A DNA stretch of 54,213 nt from Ectocarpus siliculosus (Eukaryota > Sar > Phaeophyceae > Ectocarpales > Ectocarpaceae). The DNA is taken from positions 3,440,644-3,494,856 of the forward strand of contig FN649734.1 in NCBI GenBank assembly GCA_000310025.1, written 5' to 3'. Of this stretch, positions 11,601 through 54,213 are shown piece after piece (position 1 is the stretch's first letter; each line of letters begins with the position of its first letter). The position numbers were made by a program, and so were the translations under genes. Below the pieces are notes generated by a model. It did no database searches, had not been told where the DNA came from, and saw only the letters and a program-made list of their open reading frames with translations.

Positions 11601-14435
11601 AGGGTAATCGCGCGACCTCTGTCAGCGGCCGTTTGACTGATGGTGTCCAGAAAATGCAATGAAAATAATAGAAACACCTTGTGGTATGCAGCGAATTTTG
11701 TCCTGTTGACATAATCGACCCCTGGTCTGTAGAACAACAAGTGTCCTCCCCGCACGTGGTTATGCTGAGCCCAGAGCCCGGTGTCGACCCCGGTCAATAC
11801 GATAGATTTCGGGCAGAAATCCGCTTGTTGTGCAAGTGCGAGGCACAAGCACTACACCAACAACTCAGGAGCACCGCAACGCCGAGAACGACACCCGCAC
11901 AGTAAGCCGGGGACTCAAGCAGCGCACAACCTTTTGCCGGATCCTTTCTTCGGCGAGCTCGGCCTTCGCCCTCGCCCGAGCCTTTCGCCGCGCGGGCTCC
12001 CTGGATAGAGCTTCGAACAACATTCGAAGTTCGTGTTTCTCGATGTACCCGCTCCGGTTCCTGCTTTGCAGGTACAAGGATACGTACGAACACCTTAAGA
12101 TCACAGCTCAACCTAATCTCGGATGCTATCCTTCACGACCCCGGCTCGTGGGCCCACACATACCGGAAGGGGGAACAACGCTACATGTTCTCTTCATGGC
12201 GGTTTCGAGTAGAAGGCTTTGTTTGGCGCAACCCCCGAGGAGGAATTTCTTGTAGTTGCTACGCAGCTCCTCTCCAACAGCAATGAACCGACTGTTTAGG
12301 CCAGAGCTGTAATTATTGGTACTTATTCAGTGTTTGCCTTCAATTGTTCCGTACGGAGCATGCAGGCATTCTTTTAGAGCTACGCCGACCTTCTTCAACG
12401 ACAACAACACCAACAACGACAACAACAACGACAACAACAACGACAACGACAACCCACAACAACAACAACAGCAACACCACTGTCAAAAATACTATCAACA
12501 ACAACCCCAGCCCGTTAACGACAACACCAATATCGGGTGTTGATTTTCTACCTAGCACCCGCCTGTCCAAGAAGAAGAACACGTCCGTGAATCGTGCCCC
12601 CGTTCGGTGCATGTAGCTCTCCAGCACCTGCAGAAGGTTTCCGGCCTCGCTCGTCCTGGCATCATCTTCGTCTTCGTCGGCATGTAGTCTTGAAATCGCT
12701 AGCCTGCCGAAACAAGCATCATAGACACCACGGGGTTACGCGCACGAGGGGCGTCAAAACCGACCAAACTTTGGAAAATTGCTGCTTCCCATTGCATCTG
12801 TCTGAAACCCCATGCTCCACGAAAAAAGTAGCTTGAAAAACGTGCAAAATGGACCTCATCGCGAGGAGTAATGAACGAAGCTCGATCACGGGTTAACATA
12901 CTTGTGTACACGAAATTCGGGCTCAACCTCCGAGTATGATGACTTCAGGAGACGAGCAATACCCTCGTTTTGCCACGAAACGACCTCGGTTTCAAGGCCT
13001 TGCGAATCGAAAAGACTGCGGACGGTACATATCTCTTTGCGGAACACGTCGTCGACAGCATTCTGCAGAAGTAACCTCATCTATGATGAAGCCCACTTCC
13101 GGAGGAAAACACGGTTTTGCACCGCCCGTCTGCTCCCGTCTCTTGCTTACCGCATTTCCCGGATGTCCAGAGAGAAATCGACGTCCGTATCGATAAAGCG
13201 CATGAGGTCGCTGACGTCCTTCGAAGTGAACGTCTCGCTCTCAAGCCCTAGGAAATACGCCCTTTCCGACATGCGAGATGGTTTCAAGAGTGATGCGTAT
13301 GAATAGGGGCTGAAGCTCATTCAGGAAGACTATCACACTACAACGTCGTTCCCTCTTTTGGCGGTGACGACGTTGCTCTAAGCTCGGTTGGAACTATATT
13401 TCTGGCAGGTTAGGATCATTACGAATACCAGTGACAAAAATTCTCCTACTTCTACTCTTCGCCGGCGATGACTGCATTAGACAGCGATGCTCCGCGCACA
13501 GATTCAAACTATTATTCTCCCCCATGTGCGCATTTGTCGAGCGGATCTGCCGCCTGTTCGTGTGTCGCGCCACATATGGGGCGTCAAACATCCAGGGTCC
13601 TCCACGAAGACGACAATGGGGCGTGACGCGCTGGCCTCAGGAACCCCCGTGTCTTCCACGTTCTACCTGATAGCTTCACACCACACAAACCAGTGTGATA
13701 AACTCGCGTTTTGTGCAGGGCGAGGTTCAATCGTGTATGAAGGAAATCCACTCTTTCGTTTCTAGGAGGGCAGGAAGGGCCAACATAGTGAAACACAGAG
13801 CGCTCCTCCTTTGAAGACAGTTCCTTAACTTCCCCGAGAAGCTAGCTGTCAAGCCAAACTCGCTCCCAAAGCCGGGGCCAAGTCCACTCAGAGGAAGTCC
13901 ATACTCATGATACATCAGATTTGTGCTTGGTTGCTCTTACAGATAGCTTTGCCACAGGGCACTTCACTGCCCTCGGAGGCGAGGCTTCGTGATGGCGAGA
14001 GGGACCACCTCGCGGACATGTTTCTGAAATCGTGTTCCATCCTTCCCCTTGGAGTGACAGCGACGACATGAATGATTCGTGGCGTGCTGTCCTTCGCAAC
14101 GTACGCAACCATGCGCAACCATGCGCTGGGGCAGGTTGCTGCCTCACCTCTGCCCTAGATACACCATGCCATCCAGTGCGTGCTCCCGACAAGCAATGGC
14201 CCTGCCGGCGTTCAGTACGTCTATCGAAGAAGCTCTCGTTCTCGATTCCGCCCCCTCCTCTTTGTTGTTTTCGATGTGTCCCGCCTGATTGTCGGTCCCG
14301 CACCACTGCTCTTGCCCGGCCGAAGGTCGTTCCTTAGCCCCCGTCGGAACCAGGTCACTCTCACATCGATCGATTTCATATCCGGGTTCTTCGTCAGACC
14401 GTGTTACGATGGTGTTGCTCCGGCCGCCGCCACCA

Positions 14436-14467
<32 letters not shown>

Positions 14468-17400
14468 ATCAATACCGCCGCCGCAAGGGCTTCCCGATAG
14501 CACATTCATCACCCGTGATAAACGTCGAGCATCTACGCTTCCGTTGTCGCCGTAAAGGCTCGCACCATGAGTTCCTTCTGGCTGATGGTGCCCCATTGGA
14601 ACAGCGCTCCCCAGTGAGCCACCACTAACATCACCTTGAGCTGAACCGCCCAAAGGTTTGCTTTCCCCTTGCTGTCCACGCTCGCCTCCCCCACCAGCAT
14701 GCCTCGGGTCGGGTTCCTGTATAGGGTCAGAATTACCGTCCGGGGTAATAGAGGAGTTGGTGTCTCCGTTGATGGTGGTGCAGCCTTGATTGTGGCTGCT
14801 GATGTGGTTGTGTTGTGTTGGACCGGTCTCGTCGAAGCCTTCATGCTGGCGATGCCTTCCGTGGTCAGCAGGTGCCTGGTGGCCATGGTCTTGCGCATGG
14901 CTGGAACTATTTTCTTGCCTCTCGGTGCGTTCCATGATGGAAAGATCTTTGGCGACACCGCCACTCGAGGAACGGCAGTTGATGCTGGTGCCGTTGCCCG
15001 TTTCCAATCCGTCTCCGGCAGTGTCAATCTGAGGGCCTGTCAAGGGAGGGAGGCCGTAGTTCGGGATTCGGCTGCACTTGAAAGCACGGCAGCAGCACTC
15101 GCGTCGAGCGATGTGGGTGGCCAGACGCTCAAAGCCCACCCGGAGCTCCAAAGCGGTCAGCTTTCCGTCACCGTGTCCGTTCTGAGAGTGGAACGTGTGG
15201 GGTTACGGTGTGTAAGACTCTTTCTGAATTGCATCCGGCAAATTTCTGCGGCGTACGTACCCACGCGAGCTCAACAAACACGCCAACCCCACACAACCAT
15301 GAACAAGGCAACTAACATGAAGCTGTAGTCTAAACACCCTTGTTGGTGCTGGTATGAATAGCAGAACATGCCAATACACGAGTGGCCTACGTGATCTGCA
15401 GTTCCTCTCACAGCCATCGCCTCATCAACGACCACGAGGGCCGTAGATAGAGAAAAATTCCTTCAACCCCCCAACACCGTTCGCAACAAAAAGACTTGCC
15501 CAGTCAACGGCCTCAGCAGAAAACCAAACCATCACCTGAGATGTATCCATGAACTTGAACCACTCTTCGAGAGACATCCCCGCCCGTCTCATCAACCGCA
15601 CGACCTTGGCCAGAACGACTCGACCGGCTCTTTCGGCCTTAACGGTGGCCCACTTCCTCCGTATCTTGCGAAAGCCAGAAATCATCTCCTCAAGCGTGAC
15701 CTTGTCGTCCCCGCGCCCAGCTTTATCGAAAAACTTGAGTAACTGCCACAACAACCAACAATGTGTTTGAGAGAGACCCGACATCAACGGCAATAAAGGG
15801 CCGCTAAACTCACATGGAGAGCTGCGAACATCACGTTGAATATTTTTCGGTAACGATAAGCATACAACGTCAGGATGCCTTGGTTTACCCAAACACGAAT
15901 TTCTGGCAGGCATTCGTCCGGAAGCCTGAAGGTTCGCTTTGGAATACAGATTGAATGCAAAGTTAAAGTCATTGTTTTTCGAAATCAGAACGCCAAGCGA
16001 AAGTCGTGCAGAGACGCATGGCGAATATTCGGCGAGAAAAGACTGCACCTACGTTACCTCACTAGACAGGTAGTGGAGGGGACGGCCCTCCCTCAACACG
16101 CAACATCAGGACGAGGGGGTTCAATCAAGCTCGGGCTAAAGAATGGTTGATGATTTGAAGTACACACTAGAAGGCCCAATGCGAAAAGTCTGCCCATCTT
16201 CGTCTGAGCAGTAGACATAGTAGTTCCAGCGTAAGTCGTTTCACCGCGTACGTGACCACGTGACACAAAACTTGCAAAAGGGGACGATGGATTCGCTTGT
16301 CGACAAAACGCCGAACCGTGATAGAGGTGAGGACCCGACTTTGTATGGCGGCGAAATCTCTTGGTTACAGTATTTTCTGTGTTATGCGAGTTACTTCGTA
16401 CTGCACATAGGTGAGCCCGGCCTGGAGACATGGCTAGTAAATTGAAACTCTCGTGATGTGGAAAAGGGGGGGACGGGGAGGCTGACTTCCCTTGCTACAA
16501 CTCGAAACATGTTCACAGCAGCGAAACTACTGTAGGGAAAAGTTGTGGAGGCTATTGATCATCATCAGCTATGTCTTCGGGAAAACGAGAAGAAACACTG
16601 TCTACCTTGTCGATGTCTTCGTCGGCAAAGAGCAACGCTGATGGGTCCACGTACGACTCGGTGTCGTCTCCACCGGCGCCAACGAACGCGATGCCCTTCG
16701 AAGAATCTCCGCCAGGCTGTCCTATCCCGAGAGCACCCCCGCTAGCTATGTTCAGCGGAAGGGCCTTGCTGTGCCCTCGTTTCGTGATTGCCCCGTACGT
16801 GATGCCATCCTCGAATATGTACTGGTCTACGGTTGGCATGGTTGGTGGAGGGTTCTCGAAGAGATTCGAGTAGTGAGCATACGCTTTCTCCACGTGTTGC
16901 CCGCCATCGTTTCTTTGGGAAGAGGGGATTGCATCCACTCCATTGGGGCTGAGGGAGCTCCTTTCAATCTTGTCGGAGATCGATTGCTGTTGCTCGTTGG
17001 AATCTCCACTGCCCACGTCGCATATATGTTTACTTTGTGGCGGTGTCGGCGAGACTCGTTGCTGGTGCGGAGACGTCTGTTCTCCTCCAACGGCACCGCC
17101 TGTTGGGGTGCCTCGTAGAAACACATTGGGATCTTGACTTTCCAACCCTGTGGCTTGTCCGGGTGCGGTCACGTTCGCCTGGCGAACCAGAGTGTTAATG
17201 TTTTGCCACCAGGGGAGCATCGACCTCACCGCCGGTACGCCCCCGCCGGCATCAGTTGCCGCAGGCGTTCTCCTCTTCCTGGCAAGTGCCTTCCTGCTTG
17301 CCGGAGACGGCGTACAACCCAAAGTCATCTTCTTGCTGTAGACGTACCCAGGCTGCCTTCGCGATATGGGTCGCAGCGAGACCTGGTGTTTGGGCCGCAA

Positions 17401-25700: not shown

Positions 25701-28700
25701 TGCCCGCGTGACCGGTGCTCACGTGTATTACTGCCCCGCGCAATGAGTTGTCGCATGTCTCCGACTGCCGATACGCGTGCCGCATGGTGGACAGTTGCAG
25801 CTTGCCTCTTTGGGTGTTGTGAACCAGACTATCGCTTCCTCATCTCCAGCGGAATGGTTGTTGACGGAGGTCATGTGTAAATGTGAAAGGGAACGGGGAC
25901 GGGGGACAATCTGGTACAGGAATTTGTCCACCTCTTCGAAGAATCACAGAGCATGCTCTCCGTCAACCTTTGTCGTTGGGGAACCGTCATCCGCATGGGA
26001 AAAATGTGCGATGCATCAGGAACACCGACATCGACGAAGAGGAGCTTTCAAACGCTGTTAAATCTACTCTCGACGGGAAGCCCCGCATGTCGTTCGAAGA
26101 GAGCCGGTGAGAAGGGTCGTCGAATAGGAAGCTATGCGGGCATCCTTGCTGGTCTCGCAGATGTTATCGCGTGCAGCTTGTCGTAGATCGTGTTCAGCGC
26201 CGGCAGCAGAGATTTGCGTCATTCGCCTCGCAGCGTATACCCCGACAACAACATGGGAAGACTGCTAGCCGAAGCTTTCCGGTGAACGCATGATGCGATT
26301 GAATGTTTTCCTTCTGCCCGGTGTTCCCCCCTGCTCGCCCTCCCCGTGCCATCCGACGACATCGGTTCCCCCGCCCGAAAAAAAAGAGCGGTGGAACTCA
26401 TCTTGGAGTTTGAAAAATTCATATCGACCAACCGTATCCGGCTGGTCGACCTTTTTGAGAGGGTCGACAAGGACAAGGGAGGAACCATAGACGGCGAAGA
26501 GCTCAGGGAGTTCTTGAAGCTTGGGAGGAAAACGTGAGTGGAATATCCAGGTTGTGTGGGGGAAGGCGGAAGGTATGACAACAACAGTTGATACCTGCCA
26601 GGGCGGGGCGTTCGGGGCTGGTGGGGCGAGCGAATGGTGGATGCCGGACGTCAAACGGTGCACATGACCGAGGAAAAGATGCATCGTTGGTTCATTCTCT
26701 CCTCTCGACGAAATTTTGTAAGAGCAACAGGAACATCGAAGGGGGCACGGGATAGGGATTGAACTGCTTGGGAAGCTTGGGAAGAGAGCGTGAGCGCTTG
26801 ATAAAGAGAGGGACATAGGGTACAAAACCGTGCACATTGTGGAGAACGTTGTGTGGTCTTGCAGTCTTGGGAACGTGAAGAACAGCAATCGCATTTTTTG
26901 TTCGGCGTTCACTCGCACACCTTTCACCAGAACCGAGAAATAATCCCATCTATTCAATCAGTGCTTTACTTAGAATAAGGGAGTGGGGTCGGTCGACGAT
27001 GAAGGGGTTAGGTTTCTCGAAAGCGTTGGGGGAGAGCGAGCACAGCGAGGAGGTAACGTGATCGCAGGTTTTCAACATTGAAATCAGTTCACACGACAAC
27101 GGAATTGATTTACCGTTTCCTGGGCACTCATTTGGTATCCTCGATATGGTGTGTCTGTCGACAGCACAGCTCCTACAGTAGCAGCGTATATTCAATGCCG
27201 TCTTCAAGTTGGAATTATCCCGTGCTTATGTATTCGAAAGTCGTATGAGACGCCGATGAGAGACCCCCGATTCTCACAAAGGATTCGAAAGCAAAACGAA
27301 AAGTGAAGCACAATATGCCGTCGTGACATACTTGGAACCACTTCCCGGGCATCGTCAAGGTAGTAGAACGGATACCAGCGCCCCCTCCTCCTCGAGACCA
27401 GCACTACAGAGAGAAGCGGTGGTATGTGAACGGACATCCTAGAACAACCCACTTTCATGACCCTTTACGACTGGCTCGCAGAGCGGACGGCGATGATCTT
27501 GCCCGATCAAAAGAACGGAAGGAAAAGATGGAGGAGGAAGAGAGGGACAAAGCCAGGAACGAGTTTATCCGGAAAGCACACGAAGCAAAAGAACGCCACA
27601 AAAGATCGAGGTCGGTGTGTTGGGCGTTCGAAGATTGCCAGTTCTTTGTTTTCGTGAAAATCGACCACGCTTGTTGGAGCCGTTGGTCATGGTTTCGACA
27701 TGTTGGTGTAGGATATCTATCACACCTCTGTACCAAGAGCCGAAGGGTTGACGAATCCAATGGCCGTTCGATTATTTTCTTTGCTAAATCCGCATGGCGT
27801 ATGCATTTGTGGCAGCTTTTTGAACTCCTGTCTTGCCTCCGCAGCAAACCATCGATTGAATGTGCCTGTTTCCGGATCAAATCGTCGGATCCTGGTGCAG
27901 ACATCTACTTCGGCCGTTTAGATTCTACGTCATCTTTTTTCGAGTACCTTTACCTAACGTGCCTAACGGAATATTCATACCTTGAGAGAAGCTGTATTTA
28001 GCCGTCTTGCTACTCCGTAACTTGGATTATTTTTTCATGGAATGACGGTGTGTGTTGTACCCGACGTCAGCAGCGATCGAGCCACGGGCGACCTGTAGTG
28101 CTTGCTCTTTCGCACGGCCTCGTCGCTCAAACCTTCACGTCTTGCAGCCGTTTCGATGACACCCTGATCGATTCCTTTTGTGCACCCACCCAAAATACAG
28201 GGAAACCGGTGTCAACAGGATGCTCGACAGCCTCAAAACGTTTACCAAGACCAAAGGCCTTCGCCTCTCCGACATGATACAGGTGCGGCTGACACATGCC
28301 ACTACGAGAGGCGCTTGCAAAACCTTCCACCCGCATAGGATTTTCTCGCGAGTGGGCCCGGCACCGTGAGTTTGTTGCTACGGCGATTATGTGTGCGGGA
28401 GGGTAGGGGAATGCAGATATTTTGGATTGCAGAGACCTAAACGCTGCGTGTTCGTGAAACCTACCTACCACAAACCAGGCCACCGGCGCGCATCCCGACG
28501 AGGGCATGGACCCTTCCCAGCTGCTGGCCTTCTTCGAGCGGGCGACAGGCTCGTCCCTCGACCTTACCAAGGAGTCCCTGGAGAAGATCGTCCAGAACGT
28601 GGACGAGGACGGCGACGGCCTGGTGAGATTCTCACCACGGGGCGACAGGTCGCCAGAAATGTATCCGATTGACGTTGAGGAGTATGGCGTGCATTGGAGT

Positions 28701-31700
28701 GTCAAGAAGGATGTTTGGAGAGAAAAAAGAACGTCAGTCCAGCGTGGTGGCATTTTTCACAGTTCTGAGATCGAGGAGACAGTCTTTGTTTGCCACTACT
28801 GTCGTCGGTCGAGGCTTGTAACGCAGGGTGGTGCGGCTCCAACGGCAAGGATAGCGCTCCCGGGAAAGCAACACTCCCTCGTCAGAGAATTCCGGCGATG
28901 ACTGCCGGCGTTTTTTCAGCGCTTGGTCAACGTTCTGTTGTGTTGCTTTTTGAGCAAGATCGCTGGGAACAAACCACTCACTCAGACGCAAGTGTCGGCG
29001 AGAATAGCAGAGGATATGTGCGGATGACCGCGCCGCGCCGCCAAGGACATCATACACGGAAAACAAGCTGTGTAGTATCAAACCTGGCCAAGGGTCGTCG
29101 ATGAAATCTATTCCTGCTTTAACGACAACAAAGCTACTGTCTTGGCTGGCATTGCGTAGTCGTGACAACACTGACGTTGACCATGCGTGATGTCGGGAGA
29201 GAGACACACAGAGAGAGAGAGAGGGACAGACAGCAAGTCGGTGACGAACCCAATGGTGGCAGAACGGCTTCATCCTAGAAATCAGCCGTCCTACCAATCG
29301 CCTGAAGCAATCAGCCCCAGCCTGTCTTCTATGGTTTTATCTTCCTTTGGCCTTGATATCCACAACTTTGGGGACATCTTGTGTGGCGGAATGTCAGAGA
29401 AAATAGGCCACGCCGCAAAACACTCACTTGCGTTATTAACACAAGTCAAGCTCGGTTGATCTGCCTTCACCCCCACTTCCTCCTCATTCAACCCCCCCAT
29501 CCCGCCAACTTCCCTCGGCTGGTTCCTCCTCTCCGACGTGAAGCTCTCTCTTTCCGAGATTCAGCTGGCGTTGACCCAGCACGCGCAGGACGAGATTCTC
29601 CTTCGGCGGCTTGCCAAGGCCGTCGCCCTGCACATGGCCAGGATGCTGAAGAAGACAGACCATACGAGAAACATCGGCAACGGCTTCCTCCGACCGCCCA
29701 GGAATACCACGTCTGCTGCCGCTGCTACTGACACGGACTTGGGTTTTGATCCCGAAATCCATGACCGCGACAGCAGCGGCAGCGGCGGAGGCAGTGGCAG
29801 CGGCGGCGGCGGCCGCGGAGGTGGAAGCCTCGCCAGCGGCTCGACGGTGTCCGGGAACGTATCACGAGGTCTACGATGGAGCAGCGGCAGCGGCGGCGAT
29901 AGCTCGGGTATCATCCCACCGGTTTGTGCTTTCTTTCCATCATAGAAACGTCGCCTTGGTCTGCAGCCCACACCCCACGCCGTTCTGTTGTTTCCTCCTG
30001 AAAGTATTGACTCACTCTATGCACCCTCTGACTGAGACGGTTCTCGAGGCCAGAGGAGAGGGACGGAAGAGTTTTGGGACGGTTCTGAGCTTCGTTTTGG
30101 TATAATGGTGCTAATGCTCTTCGCGGGGATAGCCAGCGTTGGAAACTCGATCGCAGGGAGGCGCTACAGTATAGGATGCGCTCGTTAGGTGGCATCCACC
30201 AGCTTCGCACGGGTGCAACAACATGAACTAGAGCCAGGTCGGTCTCGACACCCAAGAGGTCTCTCCATTCTACTAGACCTTAATTGTTTGTACAGCCTTC
30301 AGTCCACAGAGGTCTCCGGACTGTACTCTCAAGAAGGTGGACCGTGGCCATAGTGGCGGCAGGGAATCACGATGGTGGCGTGCACGCCGCATCATTCACT
30401 GTGGCGGGTGTCCCCGAATTGATTTGTGAAACACATGCCGGGCACACAGAGTTCAATTTTCTGCAGCCATGGTGTCGACGTGTTACGCCCAGCAAATCGC
30501 CTGCCCTCACGCCACACGACCAAAGCTAACCGCACTATCGTCTTGAATTGTACTTCGTATACAGGAGCAGGAACACGAAGATGCTTCGAAGCAGGCGGGA
30601 CTTGGAGGACCGAGCAACAACGCCGACCACAACTACAAGGTGAGTGCATGGATTCTCTGCTACAGCCAGAGGCGATATGTTGCCATCGAGACTTGATAAT
30701 TTTTCATCGAGACGTGCACGACGTTGACCGAATGCGACACTTTTCTCTTTAAAAATCCTCGAAAATTGCGCGAGGCATACAATTTGCTTCTTGTTGGGGC
30801 AAGAAACAACTGCCTTATTTCCATGGAAGCAACACACATCTTATGGGGCTTGTTCGCCGCTTTCACACACAAGTCCCCAATTTCGTCTCCGTTATGCATT
30901 CTTCAGAAAATATTCCATTCTGTAGTGCTACTTTACGTTCACCCCGTTTCGCATCGATTTTACGTCGTCGTATACCGGAATCGCGTGCAGTGGATACTGC
31001 ATGACGAGTCCAGCATGGACAGAATCGCCTCCATGGAAGGGATCGAGCTGTGCATGTCCAAGTGGGAAAGGCGGCACCCGGCGAGATTTCAGGTTACTTC
31101 TTCCTCCGTTCCGAGGGCAGCATTCAAAGTGCAGGTGTGCCATGTTTCCTACCACCGCTACCGAACAAACCATCGGATGTCACTCAGTATCATTTCTGTG
31201 CCCGCACGGGTTTCTCAAGCGTGCGCAACTGCTTGGCATGTCCTGTTGGGGGTAACATTCGTCTTCTAGGTGGCGGTTCAATTCAACCTGGCTGCAAGGA
31301 AAAGCAAAGCTCATGATTGCCATTTCCATGGGCATGGATTTGTGTTCAGCTCTCCGCCCCAAGAATTCCGTCACCGCAAGTTCCTTCCGAAGCAGGGGAA
31401 CTATTTTACACTGCCAATTATTGAAACATGAACGGCTCACGCGCACACTCTTGTCGTTTACAAGTCCTTGTGAATTAGCAATGGGTGGTTGCAACCTTGA
31501 TTCAACATTTAACAGGGGAATCCATTGATGTCTTTGTGAAAGAGACCTTGGAAATCCCTTCCACAAGCTTGCCCGACCAACGACCTTGCCACAAATCGTG
31601 TTAGTAATCGCACCTCCTCCTTCGTCGTTTTTCCGTCTCCCGATAGGCCGGGAGTAATCTTGACTCGAGTTGGTTGCCAGGCTTCGACCAGCGCTTCGAG

Positions 31701-34708: not shown

Positions 34709-37700
34709 ATGCGTTCTACTGGACATCGTCGAACCTTCGAGCCGATTCTCGAGCGTGCCAAACAGAGAGCGAAAGATGGCCGGGCCTGCGTCGGTTTCAT
34801 GCACGCGGAGTTTCGCCGCACGTCGGCACGGAGTTCCGCCGCACCTCATCTCGCTTTGTGGCTCTCTACCCTCTTGTACCCTCCACCATTGGCCATCAGG
34901 TCAGTGACATGACAACTGTGGCAGTGGTATCGGATCACAATCGGCCCAGGCGATGGCGTCCGCCGCCTACCCTCCCGGCGACCCGCTGTGTATTCGACCT
35001 GATCGACACGACAACTCCGGCACTGGTCGTCAAGAGAAAGCCCTGCGTTTACCCGGGGGCAGCACGACACCGTGAAGCGCTGAGGTGAGACAGCGGAGGC
35101 GGTGTGATTCTCAGATCCTGCTGCCACTGCAGCACCAGATAACGTCCTTCCTTCTGGAGATGTTGTTGAGGGCCTTCAGCAACAAACTCTCGTCTGGTAC
35201 CCCTGTATGCCGGAGAACGCCCGTGTCCACTTCCACATGGTGTTCGAGACTGGGTGATACGTTGGTCATTTGCTTACGAAGCATCATCTGGAGGGAACAT
35301 TTGCTTCCGAAGCTGCGTCCGGAGGGAACACGACAGGATAGAACATGTCGGCACATTTCTTGTGCCTCCTCGACGCTTGTACGGCGTGCGCGTACGTCTC
35401 TCACCGCGTTGATACCATGGGTTGCATCAGCTATATTTGTTCACTATCCGAGAGTAGCACCAGTTGAGAGAGGTGCAGTAGAACAGCGTAAGAGATAGAG
35501 AGTGAATGACACACAAGAAGGCAGGCAGAGACAAAGACATAGAAGACTGCCACACCCCTACTGATGTATGCATTTGGTTACATCCCAACGCCCCTAGTTC
35601 TTCAACTCCCCCGTAGACGGCGACATGTAGCCACCTCGCCTGACCCTGCCAGCAATTTGTTTTCATTGGTGGTGGCCTACATGCAGCTCATATTTCCCTG
35701 CCCCGAACTTATATTGGTTATGCGTAGACGCGCGAAGGTGCTCACCGCAACGGATCCTACCACCTTGGACATCAGAAGTGGCGATTTCTATAAAGACTTT
35801 GCCGCAGAGAGCAGACTCGCTTGTCTCGAGAGCAAAAAGGTGCGCACCGAACATCATTCCAGACTGAACTACTGTAGAGGATAACCCACTTTTGAGCGCC
35901 AGATAACCTCGTGTCTGTGCTTGGAATGATCTCCGGGAAACTCCTTTAATTATACATGGTTCGGGGTGGGAAGAGCGTTTGCCATGCCAACGATGCATCT
36001 GGTACTCTCGACTGGTTGGACGAACGTCGACCCCTTTGTTGTCTGTTCCTCGCGATGTGATTCGGGTAGAGTTATCTCGACAAACTACTTCTCCAAAGGG
36101 GTTAACGGAGGCTACCAATAGCAGTCAACGGGTATCATTCTCTAGACGTAGTTGACGCTATAGCCTACCCTTTCCCTCGTGGAACTGAACAGGAAATCAG
36201 ATCCTTCGATGAAGCGCGGGCGAAGGGAAGCGAAGGACAACCCTCTGGCGAACAGCGGCGGCAAGAGGTGGGTTATCCTTTACTTCCTCCATGAAAACAG
36301 ACTGTTGTGCACCCCTGATGAACTAGCCTTTGTGGGGATGGAAATTCTGCAGCAGAGCAACCTACGAAGTAACCCCCACCAGAAACTTGTAACTACAGCT
36401 GCGGTTGACCCAGTGCGTACGAGCAGAATATCGTTACCGAAACAGAGTTTGTCCTGTCCACCAGGTGTGATTGAACTTTACTACCACTAAACTTGTATAG
36501 AACCTTTTGAATGCACATCGCAGAATGATTGCTCCCAATGTAAGGACCTCTACGAAGGTTCGGCCCACGCTACACAATGGTCGTGGATGTCGTGCCAGGA
36601 GCGTACTTGAACACGCACGCCACACCGGTCGCCCTATACGGTAATCTACCACTGCCAACTTGGTCTACACTTCTTTTTTCAGCCTACGCCGGAGGCTTGG
36701 AGCCCAGACGCTGCCAAGCTCTCCGAGGCAGCGATGACTGCGGCCTCTCAGCCTGGAGGGCTTGGAACGGGGCCCCGCGTAACCTTGTCGGACACCTACC
36801 GCAGCTTCCGGGTACTAAACCTCGCCGAGAGAAACATCACAACGGTGAGAGGAACTTGCTGCCTTCGCCGTACACGGCTTGGGGGGCCTTCCGTCAGCTC
36901 TGTGTCTTTCTGGTTCGGCTTCGATTCGCGGACCCTTTCAAACCTCGGGTACTATGTATCCGTTTATCATCGAAGTGAAACTGGGTTCGCGCCGTTACCG
37001 AGGGTCTAATGCTGACTGATCTGAACACCAGGCGCGTGGGCATCAACTGCGGCAACAAGAGGTAGGTGTGATGAGTGTCGCTGTAGCAAAGTTGAACAAA
37101 CGCCCGGCACGGCAATCTCTTGCAGATCGACCCCGCCTTCGCGCACTTCGAAAACCTGACGGAGCTGGACTTGGGTCGAAACCGCCTCCGAAAGCTGGAA
37201 AACCTCCCGGAGGGACTCGTATCACTGTCGTGCGCAGCGAACGAGCTTTCCGGTGAGGACTACTCATGCGTGGTGGTGCAGGGCACAGGCAATGACGGCC
37301 GCAACGCGGTCGCGTTTTTTTGTTCCGAAATTCTCGCTGCGGTAACGAAACAAGCACTCCTCGTCGTTGAGGTTATTTTCAACCAACCGGATCTAGAGCG
37401 GACAGAGTTTAAGGCCGTGTTCGGGGTTTCCGAGAATAACCGCATAGGTTGCACTGCATCGTATGTTTGTTCTGTGAGAGACTACATACGTAGCAGGAAG
37501 CCAACCTTTCTTGTAAGTTGGTTGTGTCCTGCTTGCTATCTCGCTCGGTGAAAGTATGACGGAGTATGAGGTGGGCCCATGGCTGCACCTTGACATTTCC
37601 GTCGTTGGGGCGAGAGAGTTAGACCGAATCCGACCGCGTTTGGTATTTTTGTTGCCCGTTCCATTAGCCACGCGCACCGTTCAAGCTCTGGAGAAGCTGT

Positions 37701-44585: not shown

Positions 44586-47500
44586 TTAGCGACAACGGCG
44601 CTTCTCGGGACAACCGTCGTAGCCGCTGCTGCGGCACCACTTCCGAGGCCGGGTGGAACACTCCTCTCCCTCCTCACACGCGGCCGGGCTGTCGCAGGTG
44701 TCGGAGCAGTAGTACTTGCCGTTTCTGGCATACTGGAGGCACTCCTGAAAGGGTGATATCGCACACAAGATGTTTGGCACGTTCAAGTGCGCGATCGGAA
44801 GCAGTCGGACCAGACGCTATCATCGCGAAAGTGAATAGGACCAGGCACGTTTTGCCCTCTGCCTCCAAAGTAATGCTGCCTCAGGAAGATGGAAGCAACG
44901 CGGGCCGACGTTGCCCGCACCGCGCAAAGGAGCACGCGCGTGTCTTAATCGATTAATTGTGTCGTGATTCAACAATCAGCGGACTCTGCCGTCCAGATGA
45001 CAATAAATAGCTCGCCACTGCCGGCGCGAAAATAGACCTTGTCGGTGCGTGAGGAGTGAACGGTATCGATATGAAAAGACGTTGAGCGGTCGCCTGTCAC
45101 TGGTGATGAGCAGGCGGAATCAAGTTCCGATACATGAATTCCCCAAATAACCTTCGGATGACGGTCCTATTGAACACCCACGGGTCTATCCCGACTTTTC
45201 TTCCTAACTATTGAGGATATGTGGGATGTCACTTCTGTAGAGCCCTTTGCATAGGCGTAGCTATGGTCAACTTGCAATATATGTGGAATCCACCACTGCT
45301 TTTTCCGTCTTCCTTCGCGACAGCACACGGCCTCTCCTCAAACAGCCGTGGTTGCGACGGGACGCCCCCCGCCGCAAAACAATTAACCACTGGAGCACCA
45401 AACGTAACCATGAGAACCGTGTGGTTTGTGTTCATCTGTTCTTCCTCAACCGCGACGGGCGAAAAAAGGAAAAACAACGAACCTGAGTGTCATCACAGGC
45501 TCCATCGCAGTTTTCGGTCGCTTCGCAAGATGCCACGGGCGGGCACGGTGCGCGGATGCACGCAACCTCGGTCAGAACGCACGTCTCGTTGTCCGCACAC
45601 CGGTCCGGGTCGTCGCAGGTGTCCGCGCAGTAGTACTCCGATTCCAGTCCGTCTTCGTACAGCAGGCATTCCTGTAGCGTCGGTCGGGTCCACTAAAGGT
45701 TACGGGCTAGGTCTTGCAGGAGTTCATGCGTGGCGGTGTTGCGAAAAACGCCGTCTGTTTTTACGTCTCGGTGAACTTTCAAGAATGTCACAGGGGCCGT
45801 TTGGTTGGATTTCCGAGGACTATGCAACGATGGAGCGAAATTCGAACTACAGCAGTCGTTTCGGGCGCCTGTGCAGCCGAGCATGCATGCATCGCAGGGA
45901 GAACCGGCGCCAAGATTGTCACCAAAGCGTACATCGTCGAGCTTCAGTTTGCACGGTCAAAACCAAAGGACGCCGTCCTCCGCAGTTTGTTCCCGAATAT
46001 TGGTACACACGTACGCGCAAGGGCAAGGAAGACCACTCTCGCGCCGACGGCGCGGTGTCAGGTACAACGGCAACATCAACACGAAATGTACATGCATCGC
46101 CGACACGTTCTACACATGAAGGTTAGAGCGCGAACCTAGCGATTGGTCCCCCGGGTGCATGCACATAGGAGAGTGAGACTCCAGGATGGAACCAAAAACG
46201 GCGTGCCTTGCCCCGCCATATGGATATATGCGCCCAACGCGCATCATCTCGGTCACACATCTACAGACACAGGCATTTGTCAATCCCGGCAGGATGATCA
46301 CATACCTGAAACTCGCCGCACGATACGTCACATTCACCGCACCCGGCTTCCAGGTCGGCCTTCTCGTCATCCGGGACATCGCTCCAGACCCGCGCCAGAT
46401 CGCACAGGCCCACCGTCAGCTGGCCGGCCGTGCCGCCGCCGGTAGAATCGAACGGGTCGTCCCCGGCCGGGTAGAGGCCAAGGAGGTACTCCTCTCCGAT
46501 GGTGAGGTCGACGCCGCAGATGGCGCTGTTGCCTCCGGTGACAAAGCTGATCTCGTCTTGGCCGTCGACGTCACCGCTGTAGACAGCGTTCACCTGGACG
46601 GTGAAGGTGACGTCTTCGTTGATGTCCGTCTGCGCAGACCTGAAGGTGTGGAAGCAGACGGCGAATTGATTTTGTTGGTCTGGTAAAATCCCTTTACGTG
46701 GATCAAGAAAAATGCCGTAAACGCTTTTGGCGATACGTTTATGGGCGGCCTGAAGCAGGTGAACGCGGAGAACGCCGGAAGTATTCATGAGAGAACACGG
46801 GTAAAAACTACTTACACCTTTGTGGAGGTCAGGATATCGAATAATCAGGACGAACAGACACACGTAATTTTTTAAGGGCTCTGTGAAATGCGTGATAATT
46901 GATCACGGCCAAGGATCTATTGTAAACGCCACTGATTCCCAACAACTGCGAAGGGCCAACGAATTCAGGCTGGGAAAAGTAGTCCACGAACATTCGCCCA
47001 ACACTCTGCACCACCCTAGCTTGACTGAGTTCGCTCGGTCCCGCTTGGCATTCCTTGCCAAATTGCACCAAGGAAATAACCACCACAGTCCGGACTCCGC
47101 GCTCACCCAGAGTTGAGGGTACTGGGGTAACTCTTTTGTAGTAAAATGACTTGGACTTGACGTATAACTTAAGGTCGGTTACTGGTTTGACCTGGAATAA
47201 CTACTTCGGAGAGTAAACTATTCTATGTAGCATCATCGGTGTTGAGACATACGAAGTACTCGGCGGCAGCGCTACAGAGATTCCAATCGTACATAGGGAT
47301 GGGTAAGACAGAGACGCGATGCGTCCACGCAATGACAGTGAGTGGTACGCAACGCAACTTGTTGGTATGCATAGACTATATTTTCCAGAAGGAAGTGGAT
47401 CCTGGGCCAAAACGAACCTGTGAGAGAGCGGCTAAAGCTAAATCAAACTTAAGAAGCAAATGCGGGTGAACAATGTACTGACGGCTGTGTGGTCGCAAGC

Positions 47501-48292
47501 TGCTTCTGGTGTGTGTTCGGCGCTGTCCCAGAAGTTCATGCGCGGGACCTTGAACCAAAACCCCTGCAGTGCTACAGCAATATAATATGTCCACGGACAA
47601 AGGGTCATCACATACATGTCGTGTGTAGGTCGGAGAGAACGACACAGACACAGGAGGAAGTATTGGGTACGGGTAGGCACGTGCGAACGGAAGAAAATAG
47701 CAAGGGTAAACAATTTGATTGATGAGTACAAGCGACAACACAGCGGCAAAGCCCAGAGAGAACCGGGGCGTCCGCATCCCGGCGTCCTGTAGAAGACGTT
47801 CGTTCGCAGGACTACACAAATATATAAGCTGCACCGTTTCTTCATATGTTTGCTAGTCACCGCGTCTGCGGTCACATTTCCCGTGACGAGCTGGGCGTTG
47901 CGGTACACAAGAGTGCCGCGTGCGGTATACCCTCAGTCGAGATATGTACGAAACATTTTTTCTGAGTTTGCGGTCGCAACACACACGCTCACGCAGGAGG
48001 CAACGGCCAGCCCTGCACTACGTTGCGACGAAACAATACTCATGTATACCCGAAGAGCTTGGAAGAGCTACAGTAGTCGATACTATTATACTGCTGTAGC
48101 GTCCCTTTCTCACTTGGACAGCGCGGTGCCTCGGAAGACCACAGTTGTGGTCGTGAAGATCCCCTGGGCATATTCGCAGGGCGTGATGTACTGGGCGAGG
48201 CATGTGCACGCGGAGGCGTGGAAGGCTTGGTTGAGCAACAGAAGGGCGTACCCGAGCGCTGCGAAAGCTGTGTGTGTCGTGCTAGGGGCCAT
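44586..48292 (-). CDS. Secreted NTR-domain (TIMP-like) cysteine-rich protein
   Basis: A complete gene of 286 residues in four exons: 48292-48114, 46639-46306, 45671-45483 and 44744-44586 (TAA). Junction phases 2, 0 and 0 all agree. Residues 1-28 form a signal peptide (hydrophobic FAALGYALLLLNQAF, then HASA as a cleavage site), so the mature protein would begin Cys29-Thr-Cys. An N-terminal Cys-x-Cys is the hallmark of NTR modules, and in TIMPs this free Cys-Thr-Cys amino terminus binds the metalloprotease zinc. The module continues with VVFRGTALSK, VTFTVQVNAVYSGDV, ISFVTGGNSAICGV, EEYLLGLY and VGLCDLARVW, the usual NTR pattern of strands, a glycine turn and a W after the last cysteine. Two related cysteine-rich units follow, each starting EC-L-Y at an exon boundary after Gln (DGLESEYYCADTCDDPDRC and NGKYYCSDTCDSPAAC). 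A role in the extracellular matrix, perhaps protease inhibition, is inference; similarity to TIMPs is structural. Confidence 0.85.
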
Positions 48293-52114: not shown

Positions 52115-54213
52115 CGCGCGCGAGCGCGCGCACCACGCACCAAAGCCTGGTTGAGCAGCCGTCTCAGCGACCCCGGGCCGCCCGCCTTCTTCGGCAGCAC
52201 CGAGCTCTCGACCTCGTTCACGCAGATGCCGCACTCGTCCAGGGAGAAGAGCGTCGTCACCTCCTCCGCAAGCACGGGGTAGCCCCTACGTATCGCGAGG
52301 TGAAGCACGCACAAACAAGAAATGGACCACCACCCCAGGGGAGACAATGCAACAGCGAATTAATGCAGGTGCCGCGTGCGAATCGAAAATATTCAAGTGT
52401 GAATATCTTCATTTTCTCTCCGCACAGACGGGATGCCAAGAAGTAGGCGAACGCTATCGTGGAGGGGGGGTGATGATGACGGGGCCCCATATCGTTCACC
52501 AAAAAATGGTGCAATCATGGGAAAAAAAAAAAACAGTGGTTATCCCGCCTGCGAGGTCAAGGTACGACCAAAATCCAAAACACCAATTAGTCGCATACAT
52601 CACACACCACCACACACATTACGTAGTGGCATTGGAAAACAATTCCCATGTATACATGTCGCAAAACCGCCAGCCCCTACACATGGACACACAGCAAAAA
52701 AAAAAAAAACTCACCGGTCGTCCTGCATCGCGAGCGGATTTCCGAGCCTCTGCACCGTCACCCACGTTCCCCCCGATGATGCGGACCCCCTTTCCCCGGA
52801 CTTGTCCCCCTCCATCCACTCCACAATCTCCAGGTCCACGGCAAGGCCGGAGGACCCGGCGCTTTTTCGGCTGAACTGCCGGGTGATCGACGAGGGGACG
52901 CGGCTGCCCGTGGGGAACAGCTCCACAGCCTCGGCACCCTTGCAGCAGAGATACAGCAGTACACACGACACATAGTGCGACGGAGTGGCGTTGGTGTTCG
53001 GCAACATAGGGGTGGGGAACAGCAGCGACCTCTCACCACCGGCATTTGGCGGCCTACAGGACTTCCGCATGTTTCGGTCAAAAAACACCAATGCTTGATA
53101 CTCGAGGAGCAACATCATTGCTACGGGTTCTTTTGCAGATCGGTGGCATTTTCAAGGCGTCAGCAAGAGCCTCCACTGCCGGGGGTGACGGGGAGGTGAC
53201 GACGGGGGGGGGGGTGTAGGACGTAGGAGTGCCGCAAACGGCGGCATTGAGGAGGAAGGCAAACAAGAATAATGTACCCGTCTTTGGTGCCCGGGACGAG
53301 GCGAAATATGCCTTCCGCGAAAATCGACCGCCCTGAGTGCCCAAAGGCAAAAACCAAACGCGCACATAATTTTTGGCAGCGGCAACGAGACTGGCGCACT
53401 TTCAAGGGGTCGGCCGGCTATTGCGGCTGGACGCCAATACAAACGAACTCGCAGCACCTTCTTGCTGCGATCGACGAGCCCCAGCTTGTGCGACAGAGCG
53501 TCGTGTCCTGTCACCTGCCGTCACCGATGTTGCCGTGGTTTGTTGTTAGTCGTTCGGCCGTCGCAAAAAAGAAAAAACAGTCCGAGGACGCAAGGATCGT
53601 GTATTGGGCTTCGAAGGAAGGCGGCAAGGACGAGCGAGAGGCGACCAATGGAAAACATTTAATACGCTCATGTTTCACTCAAAGATTAGATAGACACCAA
53701 GCGTGACACTGCAAAACATCTCCCGTTGTGTCTTGAGTGCGTCCGAAACCACAGGGTGCGCTTGCCGTCGGCTCTCTCCGACATCAACCTCGCCAAGAAC
53801 CAACAAACGCAAGGGCGCCAACAACGTTTGCCCTCGAGACGGCAGGAGGCTCTTCCTCACCGGGAGGGCGTTGAGCAGCCCCCTCGAACCGGCCAACAGA
53901 AGCGCGGCCCCCTTGGCGCAGTCCCCGACACCCGGGTGCTCGATCTGCGCGTCTAGGAACATCTTCACAACCTCCTCCAGCAGCGCTGGCGTCTTTGCGC
54001 AACTCCCGTACAGCACCACCGTCTTCACCTGTTGGTTATCATTTTGGTTATCATGTTGGTTATCATGTTGGTTATCATGTTCGTTATCATGTTGGTTATG
54101 GTGTTGGTTATGATGTTGGTTATCATGTTGGTTATGGTGTTGGTTATGCTGTTGGTTATGGTGTTGGTTATGGTGTTGGTTATGCTGTTGGTTATGATGT
54201 TGGTTATGCTGTT
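51931..54213 (-). CDS. Divergent Hsp70-like protein, 3' part
   Basis: Partial gene, cut by the window edge. Exon 54028-53861 encodes VKTVVLYGSCAKTPALLEEV, then a stretch ending AKGAALLLAG; this matches the end of the Hsp70 ATPase domain (VVLVGGSSRIP, AVAxGAAxxAG). Exon 52938-52715 (AVELFPTGSRVPSSITRQFS, then DLEIVEWMEGD) and exon 52285-52141 (LFSLDECGICVNEVESSVLP) fit the start of the substrate-binding beta-sandwich, where Hsp70s have IPxxxxxxF and FxLDxxGIL. The phase-2 junction between these two exons agrees (DDR/GYPVLAEEV). One or two small exons between 53000 and 53500 are missing from my chain; SNDVAPRVSSIGVF near 53080-53130 may be the domain linker. A possible terminal exon is 52002-51931. 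The GSC-AKTP version of the phosphate-binding motif is unusual, so this is a diverged Hsp70/Hsp110-type protein rather than a core chaperone. Confidence 0.6.
52061..52115. repeat. (GGCA)n microsatellite
   Basis: About thirteen uninterrupted GGCA units followed by an alternating GC/CG tract, in the last predicted intron of the Hsp70-like gene. Confidence 0.97.
54031..54213. repeat. 12-bp minisatellite (TTGGTTATSNTG-type)
   Basis: About fifteen copies of a 12-bp unit (TTGGTTATCATG, with variants TTGGTTATGGTG and TTGGTTATGCTG) run to the window edge. The first copy abuts the splice acceptor of the Hsp70-like exon at 54028, so the array lies in its upstream intron. The variants alternate in a patterned way, which suggests expansion by multi-unit duplication. 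Confidence 0.95.

Follow-up and report, generated by a model that had tools for sequence, protein, structure and literature searches.

The window, a stretch of 54,213 nucleotides of the Ectocarpus siliculosus genome, carries on its minus strand (48292-44586) a gene whose four predicted exons give a single frame of 286 residues ending in a TAA stop codon, with GT...AG at its introns (Table 1). A gene with three introns had been proposed here from the DNA, and its coordinates hold, as does the intact frame. GC3 is 0.79 in the coding sequence (CDS), and the GC content of the introns is 0.51.

Table 1. Modelled features of the window gene (window positions) and of its four paralogs (P2 to P5; contig and locus positions)
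Feature	Location	Strand	Description
Exon 1	48114..48292	minus	Signal peptide and mature start CTCLAQYITPCEYAQGIFTTTTVVFRGTALS..; donor GTGAG, phase 2; layout shared by four paralogs
Signal peptide, residues 1-28	48292-48209	minus	Part of exon 1; predicted
Cys-Thr-Cys codons, predicted mature N-terminus	48200..48208	minus	Aligned by the family profile with Cys1-Ser2-Cys3 of TIMP-2
Intron 1	46640..48113	minus	1474 bp, phase 2, GT-AG
Exon 2	46306..46639	minus	Remaining TIMP-type NTR domain; mature Cys73, Cys111 and Cys132, then Cys135 and Cys139; phase 0 end
Intron 2	45672..46305	minus	634 bp, phase 0
Exon 3	45483..45671	minus	First of two EC-L-Y units, a member of the 8-Cys unit family; phase 0-0
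Intron 3	44745..45482	minus	738 bp, phase 0; weak donor GTTCGTTG
Exon 4	44586..44744	minus	Second EC-L-Y unit and stop codon
P2	Contig C19, locus L012 7038-6863 and 5111-4775	minus	Modelled exons
P3	Contig C19, exon 1 at L012 7849-8042; seven more exons on L013	plus	
P4	Contig C14, L040 775-917, 6559-6762, 7513-7639 and 8372-8542		Modelled exons
P5	Contig C489, L041 1680-1819, 3949-4255 and 4765-4996		Modelled exons

A family of paralogs in the same genome

Protein searches of the alga's own genome (189 Mb in 492 contigs), followed by models built from the contig DNA, gave at least four paralogs of the window gene. Exon 1 of all five genes has its phase-2 end at one and the same alignment column, and an extra phase-2 intron lies within the domain of both P3 and P4, at roughly the same position. 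That four paralogs were modelled with the identical join and phase points to a true junction of exon 1 with exon 2 in the window gene. An artefact, whether a decayed copy or a set of wrongly joined exons, is highly improbable: although the joins are read from DNA alone and intron 3 has a weak donor, the frame is open throughout with a high GC3, and the exon 1/exon 2 join recurs with its phase in paralogs whose domains are only 31-39% identical to that of the window protein.

The 3' ends of the P2 to P5 models may be incomplete, and P3 meets an N gap from L013 8310. No convincing exon for the 8-Cys units described below was seen in the DNA around P2, where reading past the last donor reaches a stop after 15 residues; among the five genes only P2 looks single-domain. 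P2 and P3 are arranged head to head with their start codons ~0.8 kb apart (L012 7038 minus and 7849 plus), and a shared promoter is possible. A WSC-type exon (L041 8316-8550) stands on the same strand as P5, ~3.3 kb downstream of its last modelled exon; it matches the second half of the Pfam profile only (29.3 bits against a cut-off of 27.8) and may be part of P5 or of a neighboring gene.

Lesser matches were also weighed. A stretch of contig C17 (L042 3241-3396) has 38% identity to P3 across the exon 1/exon 2 join and contains one stop; we take it for chance or an intronless relic, and as relatives both it and a match on C32 (L014, with internal stops) were judged to be chance or debris. The sub-cut-off match of the TIMP profile on C2 (18.2 bits) does not resemble the five proteins, and we regard it as a probable chance match. 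Other weak matches in the genome, at C4, C5, C48, C14:106362 and C9:2071398, had E above 1.

Predicted mature N-terminus, TIMP-type domain and 8-Cys units

The window protein has a hydrophobic stretch, LGYALLLL, beyond which HASA|CTC (residues 25-31) is the first site to satisfy the simple (-3,-1) rule, by which cleavage sites were judged. This rule is not selective and allows other sites nearby: four more within or right after the CTC of the window protein, and further ones upstream of the Cys-x-Cys in P2 and P4. In every family member the Cys-x-Cys comes immediately after an Ala-ending, signal-like segment (HASA, GAEA, AAQA, ASA and MDA for the window protein and P2 to P5, with the mature Cys at residue 29, 33, 40, 22 and 21, respectively), and cleavage exactly before it is permitted in four of the five, P5 breaking the rule with Met at -3. 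The retention of Ala-Cys-x-Cys after a hydrophobic leader by five diverged paralogs is stronger evidence than the rule itself. The cleavage at HASA|Cys-Thr-Cys named in the original prediction is allowed by the rule and has its counterpart in all five proteins, and we retain it as the predicted site. Animal TIMP-1 to TIMP-4 (PF00965) likewise have Cys-x-Cys right after the signal peptide.

A family profile was made by aligning the five mature domains, with no TIMP included. Against PDB at E up to 10, its 15 matching rows were all TIMP-1, -2 or -3, with no NTR protein other than a TIMP among them; the best was TIMP-2 (E 4.5e-14), aligned from residue 1 to residue 1 with Cys1 on Cys1. A profile of three of the domains gave a best TIMP match of E 2.9e-11, and the score of each of the five domains against the TIMP-2 N-domain was reached by none of 1000 shuffles of that TIMP-2 domain. 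Single sequences gave a more mixed result. The Pfam TIMP cut-off was passed by P2, P4 and P5 (30.4, 24.7 and 27.7 bits). With the limit set at E 1, four of the five domains matched, and that of the window protein fell 0.1 bit short of the cut-off (23.0 vs. 23.1 bits, E 7.5e-5); no Pfam TIMP match was obtained for the P3 domain or for the full-length window protein. Against PDB the window protein alone matched TIMP-2 only weakly (E 0.29), below a chance-like match to trypsin in its unit region (E 0.0072). Taken on sequence grounds, the homology of the family domain to the TIMP N-domain (N-TIMP) is nevertheless close to certain. The NTR/TIMP likeness that had been noticed, including its Cys-x-Cys end, receives strong support from the sequence profiles and the four paralogs, since the family profile finds only TIMPs, although the window domain taken singly stays just under the Pfam cut-off. 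From this homology we infer an OB-type fold for the window domain; a structure prediction made from exon 2 alone, without an alignment, was too poor for use (pLDDT 37.7).

The six cysteines C1, C3, C11, C73, C111 and C132 (mature numbering) are invariant in the five domains. NTR-type sequence extends across the whole domain, as in the animal N-domain, and in the alignment with TIMP-2 five of the six cysteines (Cys1, Cys3 and the last three of the domain) fall on those of N-TIMP; around the fourth, the window protein has NSAICGV and TIMP-2 has SSAVCGV. The third is not placed on TIMP Cys13 but lies at least four residues away from it: it stands at mature position 9-11, vs. 13 in animal TIMPs, and 8-12 residues ahead of the first strand's Val-Val, vs. 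4 in TIMP-2. Because of this offset, its equivalence to Cys13 can only be presumed. The animal N-terminal signature C-x-C-x-P-x-H-P-Q.. (after PROSITE PS00288), which TIMP-2 matches, is matched by none of the five family domains, a further difference from animal TIMPs beside the displaced third Cys.

In animal TIMPs, Cys1 chelates the catalytic zinc of the protease and residue 2 occupies the S1' pocket. The Cys-Thr-Cys of the window protein would, from its place in the alignment, be the equivalent of this zinc-chelating wedge. Residue 2 is Thr in the window protein, Ser in three paralogs and Arg in P3, so that four of the five members resemble animal TIMPs in having Ser or Thr there. According to the portions of PMC3679795 used here, a Ser, Thr or Lys as residue 2 fits inhibition, as is found for those same four members, the window protein included, and Arg is atypical.

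The C-terminal six-Cys TIMP domain was not found in the family, the Pfam and PDB matches ending inside the N-domain. In four of the five genes, unlike in animal TIMPs, the domain is followed by 8-Cys units, which have separate exons. As modelled, these exons are in phase 0 for the window gene, P3 and P4, and the P5 unit exon is in phase 1 at its end. Compared with one another, the two EC-L-Y units of the window protein score 87, and 1000 shuffles gave at most 58. An alignment of nine 8-Cys units, taken from four genes, keeps eight cysteines throughout; a smaller one of five units keeps seven. Four single units searched against Pfam at E up to 1 gave no match, both window units together matched only zf-FCS (E 0.057), the best PDB match of the units had E 0.094, and they matched no TIMP. 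As neither database gives a convincing match, the proposal of two novel Cys-rich units agrees with these searches, and the exon-borne 8-Cys units appear to form a new type of partner domain.

Possible function and origin

We think that the window protein is probably a secreted TIMP-like inhibitor of metzincin-type metalloproteases, a reading drawn from sequence comparison. Removal of the signal peptide would free Cys1, and a disulfide between Cys1 and Cys73 (the mature Cys73 of Ala-Ile-Cys-Gly-Val) would hold it; the amino group and carbonyl of Cys1 would then chelate the catalytic zinc of the target, with Thr2 going into its S1' pocket. The two 8-Cys units occupy the place of the animal TIMP C-terminal domain, and at a guess they would bind wall matrix or choose the target. 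As to the lack of that C-terminal domain, the passages of PMC3679795 used here describe the TIMP N-domain as inhibiting without it, and also describe single-domain TIMPs of parasitic helminths, which resemble the present family in having an N-domain without the vertebrate C-terminal domain and a variable residue 2; unlike these, four of the five genes here add 8-Cys units on separate exons.

Netrins and complement C3-C5 are other proteins whose NTR domains serve without protease inhibition, and the TIMP-derived NTR domain may similarly have been retained as a binding or matrix module that inhibits no protease. We hold this to be unlikely, though far from negligible. It would suit the Arg2 of P3, the absence of the animal signature from the whole family, the shift of the third Cys and the WSC-type exon downstream of P5 (whose membership in the P5 gene is only possible), and there is a parallel in AceES-2, a hookworm TIMP relative that does not inhibit human metalloproteases of the MMP group as described in the same partial source (PMC3679795). 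Yet all five members have the domain, with its Cys-x-Cys, right at the mature end as predicted, a position that would bring a mere binding module no obvious benefit, and the matches of the family profile were confined to TIMPs, with no other NTR protein among them.

If the protein is the TIMP-like inhibitor that we favor, its role is likeliest to be defense against microbial proteases, with control of the alga's extracellular proteases coming second. For the red alga Pyropia yezoensis, the sections of PMC6928737 on which we draw describe a secreted TIMP, py03343.t1 (PF00965), that rose 2.13- and 5.89-fold on infection by the oomycete Pythium porphyrae and was proposed to block M10 enzymes of the pathogen. 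According to passages of a review (PMC8307928) and of the abstract of PMC3174193, oomycete-infected Ectocarpus secretes protease inhibitors; neither gives their kind, and the second mentions no TIMP. It is because of this red-algal induction and this secretion of inhibitors on infection that we place defense first. The same mechanism might instead be turned on extracellular metalloproteases of the alga itself, during gamete release or the remodelling of its wall, a reading that differs from ours in role only and that we rate as rather improbable. It would accord with animal TIMPs, described in the passages used of PMC10755359 as endogenous inhibitors of an organism's own metalloproteinases, but the sole algal precedent found is infection-induced. 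A profile search of the alga's own genome put none of the M10, M11, M12A and reprolysin families over cut-off, which might be counted against an endogenous target; this negative is uninformative, because the TIMP profile, searched against this genome, also missed all five known genes.

The Pyropia protein resembles the present family in being algal, in its reported signal peptide and in its PF00965 assignment, a likeness by description only, and it belongs to another algal lineage (PMC6928737, in part). With it, a secreted algal TIMP had been published before the Ectocarpus family. Among the open-licence papers listed in our literature searches, none was on a brown-algal TIMP; matches to 'TIMP' in the text seen of PMC3429442 and PMC5795050 were author names.

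The TIMP family is described as widely distributed in Metazoa in the part consulted of PMC10755359. Algal paralogs with a predicted mature Cys-x-Cys and a near-full set of N-TIMP cysteines imply an older origin, transfer, or both. No relatives were found when a three-member domain alignment and a five-member 8-Cys alignment were searched against prokaryote and viral contigs, and tblastn found nothing for P2 in plasmids or for P5 in phages and plasmids. We suggest tentatively, giving it somewhat less than even weight, that brown-type algae have their own radiated TIMP-type family, in which the animal wedge is mounted on arrays of 8-Cys exons and secreted against microbial metalloproteases. If so, TIMPs of the wedge type would predate, or stand outside, animal matrix biology. 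Whether inhibition by a zinc-chelating wedge has a part in the walls or in the immunity of algae is a question that the family allows to be tested directly.

Other features of the window and genome

Light-harvesting proteins (PF00504) are matched 87 times in the genome, which supports an algal host. Many of the light-harvesting genes on contigs C92, C232 and C488 share an identical score (127.6 bits), and these are apparently clusters of near-identical copies. In the window itself, a long minus-strand open frame (14147-15202) weakly matches the cysteine-rich motif of EsV-1-7 (20.7 bits, cut-off 25), a mainly brown-algal family, and so gives a weaker hint of a brown alga. Positions 28458-28898 have an EF-hand-like match (20.2 bits, cut-off 30) and 37096-37548 a leucine-rich-repeat match (26.3 bits, cut-off 27), both under their cut-offs, and a long open frame with HNQ-type repeats (53678-54211) reaches the window edge.
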